Shown here one piece after another: positions 2,964 through 27,160 of a DNA stretch of 35,774 nucleotides (positions are counted from its first letter, which is position 1; each line of letters opens with the position of its first letter). The DNA lies in the NCBI GenBank assembly GCA_005777825.1, contig SXLB01000078.1:1-35774 (forward strand), given 5' to 3'. The stretch comes from Methylotenera sp. (GTDB taxonomy: Bacteria > Pseudomonadota > Gammaproteobacteria > Burkholderiales > Methylophilaceae). Both the position numbers and the translations under genes were made by a program. The notes beneath the pieces are model-generated. The model saw only the letters and a list, made by a program, of their open reading frames with translations, was not told the origin of the DNA and did not search any database.

Positions 2964-2977
2964 TTGACCTAGGTCAA
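2964..2977. promoter_or_regulatory. FNR/CRP-family operator-like palindrome TTGACCTAGGTCAA
   Basis: Perfect 14-bp palindrome matching the TTGAY-N4-RTCAA class; 73 nt upstream of the DUF3149 ATG; centred 41.5 bp upstream of the +1 predicted from the CATATT -10 at 3000-3005. Confidence 0.65.
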
Positions 2978-3049
2978 TGCGCACGGCAGATGAAAAGATC
3001 ATATTGGTAAGCACTGCAATGATGCAGTGTTTGCCATAGGACTTTCATC

Positions 3050-3196
3050 ATGAAATTATTAAGCGATTTACTATCCACTGACTACGGCCTACAAAGTGTC
3101 GCCGTGATTGCCTTTGTCTTAGTCATGGTGGTGTTCTTCTCCGTGTACTTCAAACGCCACATGGATCAAGATGCCAAGAATGCCGGATTGAAATAA
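3050..3196 (+). CDS. DUF3149-type small single-pass membrane protein (48 aa)
   Basis: Translated by hand: MKLLSDLLSTDYGLQSVAVIAFVLVMVVFFSVYFKRHMDQDAKNAGLK*; one TM helix; resembles DUF3149. Below the ORF-track size cut-off. Confidence 0.82.
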   Translation: MKLLSDLLSTDYGLQSVAVIAFVLVMVVFFSVYFKRHMDQDAKNAGLK

Positions 3197-3221
3197 CCCC
3201 TCTTCCAAGAGCCAAATAAAA

Positions 3222-3250
3222 AAACCCAGCCACTTTCGTGAACTGGGTTT
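3222..3250. terminator. Bidirectional terminator between DUF3149 gene and typA
   Basis: AAACCCAG...CTGGGTTT stem with inner CAC/GTG pairs, A-rich on left and T-rich on right, between convergent genes. Confidence 0.85.
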
Positions 3251-3289
3251 ATTTTATGGCTAAGATTGTTAGGCTTAAAATAGCGCTAA

Positions 3290-5119
3290 TTAGGCTTTAT
3301 TGGTGCCGGCGCGTTTACGCTCGTTTTCCGTTAAATGGCGTTTGCGGATACGTATGGTTTTTGGGGTGATTTCCACCAACTCATCGTCATCAATAAATTC
3401 CACCGCCGATTCCAAAGACAAGGCGATAGGCGTAATCAAGCGCACCGCTTCATCGGTACCGGATGAACGCACGTTGGTCAGTTGTTTACCTTTAATTGGG
3501 TTCACCACCAAGTCGTTATCACGGCTGTGCACGCCTATGATCATGCCTTCGTACAATTTATCGCCGGGCACAGAGAACATTTTTCCGCGGTCTTGCAATT
3601 TCCATAAGGCGTAAGCCACGGCCTCGCCTTTTTCGGCGGAAATCAACACGCCATTCCGGCGACCTGGCATGTCGGCTTTCACCGGGGCGTATTCGTCAAA
3701 CACGTGGCCCATTAAGCCGGTACCGCGTGTCATGGTTAAAAATTCGCCTTGGAAACCAATCAAACCGCGCGCTGGAATTTTGTATTCCAAACGGGTACGG
3801 CCGTTACCATCGGATTCCATGTTAAGCATTTCACCACGACGACGACCCAATTCCTCCATGGCTGCACCTTGGTGCTCGTCTTCTAAATCGACAGTGAGAA
3901 TTTCATAAGGCTCGCATTTTTCACCGTTTATTTCGCGGAACACCACTTTTGGTTTACCCACGGCCATTTCAAAGCCTTCACGGCGCATGGTTTCCAACAA
4001 AATAGTTAAGTGTAATTCACCGCGACCGGATACGCGGAACACGTCGGCATCTTCGGTTTCTTCCACGCGCAAGGCCACGTTAACCAACAATTCTTTGGTT
4101 AAGCGATCACGGATTTGACGTGATGTGACAAACTTACCTTCTGTACCGGCTAAGGGTGAGGTATTCACCATGAAGTCCATGCTCAAGGTAGGCTCGTCCA
4201 CACCTAGATGCGGCAAGCCCACTGGGTTTTCACGATCGCATATGGTGAAGCCTATGCCGATGTCGTCTAGACCAGAAATAATCACGATGTCGCCGGCTTC
4301 AGCTTGTTCTACTGGCACGCGCTCCAAGCCTTGGAAACCCAAAACCTGATTAATCTTGCCCATGGTCACTTGCTTGTCACCGTTCATGATGGTGACGGCC
4401 TGACCGGTTTTGATCTTACCGTTGCTAACGCGGCCCACACCCAATCGGCCCGTGTAGGTTGAGTAATCCAAAGCGGAGATTTGCATTTGCAATGGCGCAT
4501 TGCTATCACCAGCAGGTGGTGACACGTGTTTAAGGATGGTGTCAAACAAGGCACGCATGTTGTCTGAAGGTGTCTTCATGTCCATCATGGCATAACCGTT
4601 AATGGCTGACGCGTAAACAATAGGGAAATCCAACTGGTCGTCATTGGCGCCTAAGTTAGCAAACAAATCAAAGGTTTGGTTGATCACCCAATCGGTACGG
4701 GAACCTGGGCGGTCCACCTTATTGATCACAACTATGGGTTTCAAACCCAAGGCCAAGGCTTTCTTGGTCACGAAACGGGTTTGAGGCATAGGGCCTTCCA
4801 CCGCATCCACCAACAACACCACGCCGTCCACCATGCCTAATACGCGCTCTACTTCACCACCAAAGTCCGCATGGCCTGGGGTATCCACAATGTTGATGCG
4901 CGTGCCTTCGTAAACCAAGGCGGTGTTTTTCGCCAAAATGGTAATGCCGCGTTCTTTCTCTAAATCATTAGAGTCCATGACGCGCTCCACCACGGCGTGG
5001 TGAGCGGCAAAGGTGCCGGCTTGTTGTAGAAGCTTGTCTACCATGGTGGTTTTACCGTGGTCAACGTGGGCAATGATGGCGACGTTTCTTAAATTCCTGC
5101 TGCTAGGGGTGCTTGACAT
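3290..5119 (-). CDS. typA: GTP-binding translational GTPase TypA/BipA
   Basis: [41 protein letters not shown]; likely start MSSTP at 5119 rather than 5170. Confidence 0.97.
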
Positions 5120-5196
5120 AGTGTGGAGCCAGTATTGAAAGGCGGCGATTCTAACATACTTAAGGGCCAATTAATTTTCCCACTCAAATTATTAAT

Positions 5197-27054: not shown

Positions 27055-27148
27055 GGCGGGCCTCCCCGCATTGTGAAGTAGCCAATCTGGTCAGGTGCGG
27101 AAGCAAGCAGCCACAACTATTGAGCAAGTGCCGGGGGCAAGGCTCGCC
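27055..27148 (+). ncRNA. ffs: Signal recognition particle RNA (4.5S, bacterial small type)
   Basis: Conserved GGTCAGGTGCGGAAGCAAGCAGCC apical loop and complementary ends GGCGGGCC/GGCTCGCC; upstream of dnaX. Confidence 0.93.
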
Positions 27149-27160
27149 TCCCCTTATTAT

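Follow-up and report, generated by a model that had tools for sequence, protein, structure and literature searches.

The high-affinity cbb3 oxidases serve bacterial respiration on traces of oxygen. Time and again, small subunits of oxidases have escaped notice, among them subunits of the cytochrome bd oxidases and the 36-aa CcoM (PDB 5DJQ, chain N), which is part of the cbb3 oxidase of Pseudomonas stutzeri. Overlooked small oxidase subunits are documented for P. stutzeri (PMC10433244, PMC9264385), and in B. cenocepacia the overlooked small subunit CydP belongs to an operon that carries an Anr-like box (PMC9104464). Regarding regulation, FNR control of cco and hemN has been predicted in the betaproteobacterium Accumulibacter (PMC6446978).

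Here, we analyzed a contig of 35,774 nt (SXLB01000078.1, assembly GCA_005777825.1), referred to as the window, which belongs to a Methylotenera-like MAG; a single-protein scan likewise placed the nearest named relatives among Methylotenera MAGs. The segment of interest is flanked by an ABC-F ATPase gene (1345-2940) and a convergent bipA/typA gene (3290-5170), and contains the following features:

2964-2977, no strand assigned: the perfect palindrome TTGACCTAGGTCAA, read as an FNR/CRP-family operator; its centre is at -41.5 relative to the predicted start, and it is kept upstream of DUF3149 genes
3000-3005, plus strand: -10 element CATATT, which follows the box after 22 nt, as at ccoN, ompW and hemN of the same genome
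3012, plus strand: predicted transcription start, inferred from the -10 element and the position of the box
3007-3034, plus strand: inverted repeat or stem-loop with loop ATGA; the stem has 12 bp, G-U pairs included, of which the 7 at 3012-3029 pair perfectly
3038-3041, plus strand: Shine-Dalgarno sequence AGGA, 8 nt before the ATG
3050-3196, plus strand: DUF3149 (PF11346) small membrane protein, 48 aa plus stop, one predicted TM helix, basic C-terminus
3210-3262, no strand assigned: bidirectional intrinsic terminator common to the DUF3149 unit and the convergent bipA/typA gene

An earlier, sequence-only reading of this DNA had reported the palindrome at 2964-2977, CATATT at 3000-3005, the repeat CACTGCA-ATGA-TGCAGTG at 3012-3029 and the open reading frame at 3050-3196, and all four are located exactly there. 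Its placement of the palindrome centre at -41.5 is also correct, the centre lying between 2970 and 2971 when the predicted +1 at 3012 is taken as reference. The terminator is strong (-21 kcal/mol, z -6.0, 0 of 200 shuffles equally stable), and the best reading of the segment is that it forms a self-contained transcription unit. The fold of the whole transcript is ordinary (z 0.10), and an Rfam search of the window gave no match at the DUF3149 locus. The only Rfam match elsewhere was an ordinary bacterial small SRP RNA at 27055-27151 (66.7 bits), just upstream of a dnaX-like gene.

The encoded protein, MKLLSDLLSTDYGLQSVAVIAFVLVMVVFFSVYFKRHMDQDAKNAGLK, was assigned to DUF3149 (PF11346) by a Pfam search with 60.8 bits against a cut-off of 23.2 (E 9.1e-17). 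Differences between close orthologues number 180, 113 and 433 at codon positions 1, 2 and 3, a pattern that marks a protein under selection, and hence the reading frame is a real gene. These two results bear out the prior proposal that a 48-aa DUF3149 protein is encoded at 3050-3196. Its layout, with the TM helix read off the sequence, fits that of the family, whose members have about 40-50 aa with a short N-terminus containing an invariant glycine, one hydrophobic helix and a basic tail; in an alignment of 26 members of the subfamily, G13 is invariant and L7 and S16 are nearly so. When the protein was compared with solved structures, no match was returned. Within a phylum-wide sample DUF3149 was confined to the class to which the window belongs, and neither the name nor the accession of the family was found in the 5.39 million papers searched, which include few from subscription journals.

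The promoter contains a TTGA-N6-TCAA dyad that forms a perfect 14-bp palindrome. Three sites of this type occur in the window, against 0.61 expected by chance, so that a single box is weak evidence by itself. Its half-sites are TTGAC/GTCAA, as opposed to the consensus TTGAT/ATCAA. The would-be -35 (ATGCGC, 2977-2982) is poor, with 2 of 6 matches, and a consensus scan found no sigma-70 promoter at the start region of DUF3149, which fits the expectation for an activator-dependent promoter.

Evidence of another kind comes from comparing upstream regions. We looked for boxes of the TTGA-N6-TCAA type, perfect or with at most one mismatch, 65-115 bp before the start codon. Among 67 DUF3149 genes of the family Methylophilaceae, 41 have a perfect box and 56 have one with at most one mismatch, whereas shuffled upstream regions gave 0.11 and 2.2, the control window -150 to -200 gave 0 and 2, and the reversed pattern gave 0 and 4. 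In other families of the class the corresponding counts are 12 and 23 of 29 genes (shuffles, 0.02 and 0.67). In the STDYG-like group the box is present in 35 of 35 genes (21 perfect, the others with one mismatch), and the same holds for all 10 DUF3149 loci of a later phylum-wide sample, five of which come from one genus. Since the box is kept far above shuffles and controls, its position upstream of orthologues is not due to chance; and since the upstream neighbour gene varies among the box-bearing groups, its conservation is not due to common flanking sequence either. When the Methylotenera DUF3149 genes are aligned on the box, a -10 element (CATATT and variants) lies 22 nt downstream of it. 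The loss of the palindrome upstream of orthologues had been named beforehand as the observation that would speak against the promoter, and these counts show that the palindrome is kept, inside and outside the family. At one other DUF3149 locus (L023) the box lies inside a long inverted repeat (TAGCCTGCG...CGCAGGCTA), directly after the ABC-F gene and upstream of the DUF3149 start; the outer arms of this repeat have decayed in the window.

The box is not found everywhere. Six of the 29 class genes have none in the test range; one of these has a perfect box at -130, and three others (L126, L128 and L129) have a box upstream of the cco operon in which they are carried. In most cases, then, DUF3149 is predicted to be an FNR target in its own right or is part of an FNR-type cco operon. 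Neither applies to the class genes L119 and L125, nor to the MLKVLFGSWVG/FGSTVG subfamily, in which 0 of 9 genes have a box (L046, L048, L055, L059, L064, L067, L069, L081 and L083) and the neighbours are other genes. In one genome (L132) a member of this subfamily adjoins tatC and the Rieske/cytochrome b (petABC) genes; the partner complex of the subfamily is possibly a different one.

The genome of the window encodes an FNR (L093:3778-4509) with an N-terminal C-X2-C-X5-C motif, CSSCNLRELC, and a further cysteine. The fnr gene adjoins hemN, with a box between them. The order of box, 22 nt and -10 element seen at DUF3149 recurs in this genome at ccoN, ompW, hemN and an nnrS-like gene, and a narK-like gene has a similar arrangement; the nnrS-like and narK-like names are our reading of N-termini. 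Together, the boxes with 21-22 nt to the -10 (L015:1472, L092:7591, L093:1240, L093:3649 and L159:558) outline a small FNR-type regulon of nnrS-like, ccoN, ompW, hemN/fnr and narK-like genes. The FNR-like class II promoter that had been suspected from the window is thus supported by the conserved box, the 22-nt spacing, the same layout at ccoN, ompW and hemN, and the presence of an FNR gene, and we regard the class II FNR reading as well supported by sequence comparison, with 3012 as the predicted start site.

Two other explanations of the promoter have to be considered. In the more radical one, the palindrome is a chance occurrence, the promoter is spurious, and DUF3149 is transcribed by read-through from the ABC-F gene. 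Between the stop codon of that gene and the box there are just 23 bp, in which no terminator was detected, and the number of such boxes expected per window makes coincidence conceivable; the box is kept, however, where the upstream gene is a different one, and the comparative data refute read-through as the whole explanation, which leaves it hardly tenable. It is less far-fetched, if still improbable, that the box is read by another regulator of the CRP/FNR family, either an NO sensor (DNR/NnrR) or one of the CRP type, in which case the signal would be NO or carbon. This would agree with the deviating half-sites, with the presence in the genome of a second Crp-family protein lacking the FNR cysteines, and with the similar boxes at the nnrS-like and narK-like genes. 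Yet boxes of this class also occur at ccoN, ompW, hemN and fnr, with shared geometry at ccoN, ompW and hemN, and the DUF3149 orthologues alternate freely between TTGAT and TTGAC half-sites.

As to what this presumably FNR-controlled protein does, it had been suggested that it may be an accessory subunit of a respiratory complex, and for the cbb3 oxidase this suggestion is supported by co-occurrence with ccoN and by operon position. In a class-wide sample of 369 genomes, 37 with and 332 without DUF3149 (DUF3149 and ccoN each counted above its cut-off), ccoN was detected in 36 of the 37 and in 153 of the 332 (p 1.3e-10); the one exception is a genome that is 55% complete. Within the family, ccoN is present in 80 of 85 DUF3149 genomes and 53 of 102 others, and the five DUF3149 genomes without detected ccoN are all at most 91% complete. 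This family comparison is the weaker test, because reduced genomes (genera g2 and g16) lack both genes and so confound it; we therefore rely on the class-wide sample. The gene order is ccoNO(Q)P-DUF3149-ccoG in six genomes (L126, L129, L138, L139, L140 and L141), which belong to three families. In a fourth family (L128) the order is fnr-ompW-DUF3149-ccoNOQP-ccoG, and in a fifth (L142) DUF3149 lies about 1.1 kb beyond ccoG with a box of its own. In L139, L140 and L141, tblastn detected no CcoQ between ccoO and ccoP; it may be divergent or missing there. The association does not extend to cytochrome bd: cydA is present in 18 of the 37 DUF3149 genomes and 149 of the 332 others (p 0.73), and for want of an association we reject an accessory role in that oxidase. 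No cydA was found in the genome of the window itself, which is 83% complete.

Based on these data, we consider it probable that FNR activates DUF3149 and that its product serves the cbb3 oxidase as an accessory or assembly protein, a prediction drawn from genome comparison. The main rival is that it is an FNR-induced small membrane protein with a general role at low oxygen, such as tuning of the membrane or respiratory chain or a function in redox stress, and makes no contact with cbb3. In the window, DUF3149 indeed stands alone, the cco operon of the genome being on another contig; FNR regulons contain many unrelated genes, and the occurrence of cbb3 may itself mark FNR-type lifestyles, so that an association through a shared regulator or lifestyle could mimic a functional link. 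Against a general role speak the location of DUF3149 between ccoP and ccoG in three families and an association that holds for cbb3 and not for bd, and we consider it rather unlikely. Many genomes carry cbb3 without DUF3149, and consequently the protein is not essential for the oxidase.

In the case of the inverted repeat, the earlier description was correct in part. The 7-bp stem at 3012-3029 is present, but the true stem is longer, with 12 bp including G-U pairs (3007-3034); the 7-bp core begins at the predicted +1, and the outer arm starts 5 nt upstream of it. The idea that the hairpin protects the mRNA receives partial support from the arms, which co-vary within the genus. In several close relatives a hairpin built of other letters occupies the corresponding position (z -3 to -6.7), and in eight dissimilar sequences 46 of 56 cells are paired, against a mean of 27.9 when the right arms are re-dealt (0 of 5000 as high), a comparison that favours pairing somewhat, because the arms were set by hand and the axis was chosen per sequence. 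Hand-setting was chosen because the right arms came out in the wrong place when the leaders were aligned automatically. On the other hand, the stem counted from the predicted +1 onward is unexceptional (z -1.2, 25 of 200 shuffles equally stable), and most other genera have either a weak hairpin or none. Instead of a stabilizing stem that protects the mRNA, the repeat could be an operator at which a second regulator binds the DNA, or a palindrome maintained by templated mutation, which would agree with arms that reach upstream of the +1 and with a stem that, from +1, is not unusual; the arm letters change together between species, which a protein-binding site would not need, and we lean against this alternative while granting it a sizeable chance.

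The conserved box and promoter geometry, the FNR gene, the boxed cco operon, the co-occurrence with cbb3 and the location of DUF3149 in cco operons elsewhere can be read directly from the genomes; the oxygen response, the FNR binding, the topology and the physical association with the oxidase in the following model are inferred. When oxygen falls, the [4Fe-4S] FNR encoded in the genome would bind TTGACCTAGGTCAA and contact RNA polymerase from -41.5 (class II). It would thereby switch on an mRNA of about 245 nt that starts with or near the stem-loop, ends at the shared terminator and encodes a single-pass inner-membrane protein, probably with its N-terminus out and its C-terminus in. The DUF3149 protein would then probably join the cbb3 oxidase produced from the co-regulated ccoNOQP operon as an accessory subunit, or else assist its assembly or stability. 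A broader proposal, which we make tentatively and rate slightly below an even chance, is that DUF3149 serves cbb3 oxidases across beta- and gammaproteobacteria as a small subunit or assembly factor so far overlooked, with an origin independent of CcoM, that it is a core FNR target, and that in Methylotenera the promoter-proximal hairpin adds a second layer of control, at the RNA level.

An uncharacterised Pfam family thus gains a specific and testable role from the combination of promoter, phylogenetic profile and operon position. Among the known small oxidase subunits, those of cytochrome bd (CydX, CydH/YnhF and CydP) resemble DUF3149 in being short single-helix accessories of an oxidase, and differ from it in that DUF3149 has no statistical link to cydA. 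CcoQ/FixQ (PF05545) is, like DUF3149, a small one-helix component of the cco operon; the two are not identical, since the window protein matches DUF3149 only and the ccoNOQP operon of the genome has a separate CcoQ (FixQ, 3.3e-10). CcoM, like DUF3149, is a very short membrane protein that has a single helix, a basic C-terminus and a link to cbb3, and it is a candidate for a protein that works in a similar way. We do not equate the two, as no homology was detectable: CcoM gave no PF11346 match, and a profile comparison aligned 7 columns with 7.8% probability. With regard to control, the predicted window promoter resembles the FNR/ANR class II promoters of cco, hemN and ompW in its box near -41.5, the 22 nt to the -10 and the cysteine-bearing FNR encoded in the genome, and differs from FNR/ANR class II promoters in its TTGAC/GTCAA half-sites. 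In kind, a small membrane protein with a predicted link to cbb3, encoded behind a conserved FNR-type promoter, is ordinary; the assignment of such a role to DUF3149 is new as far as the literature was searched.
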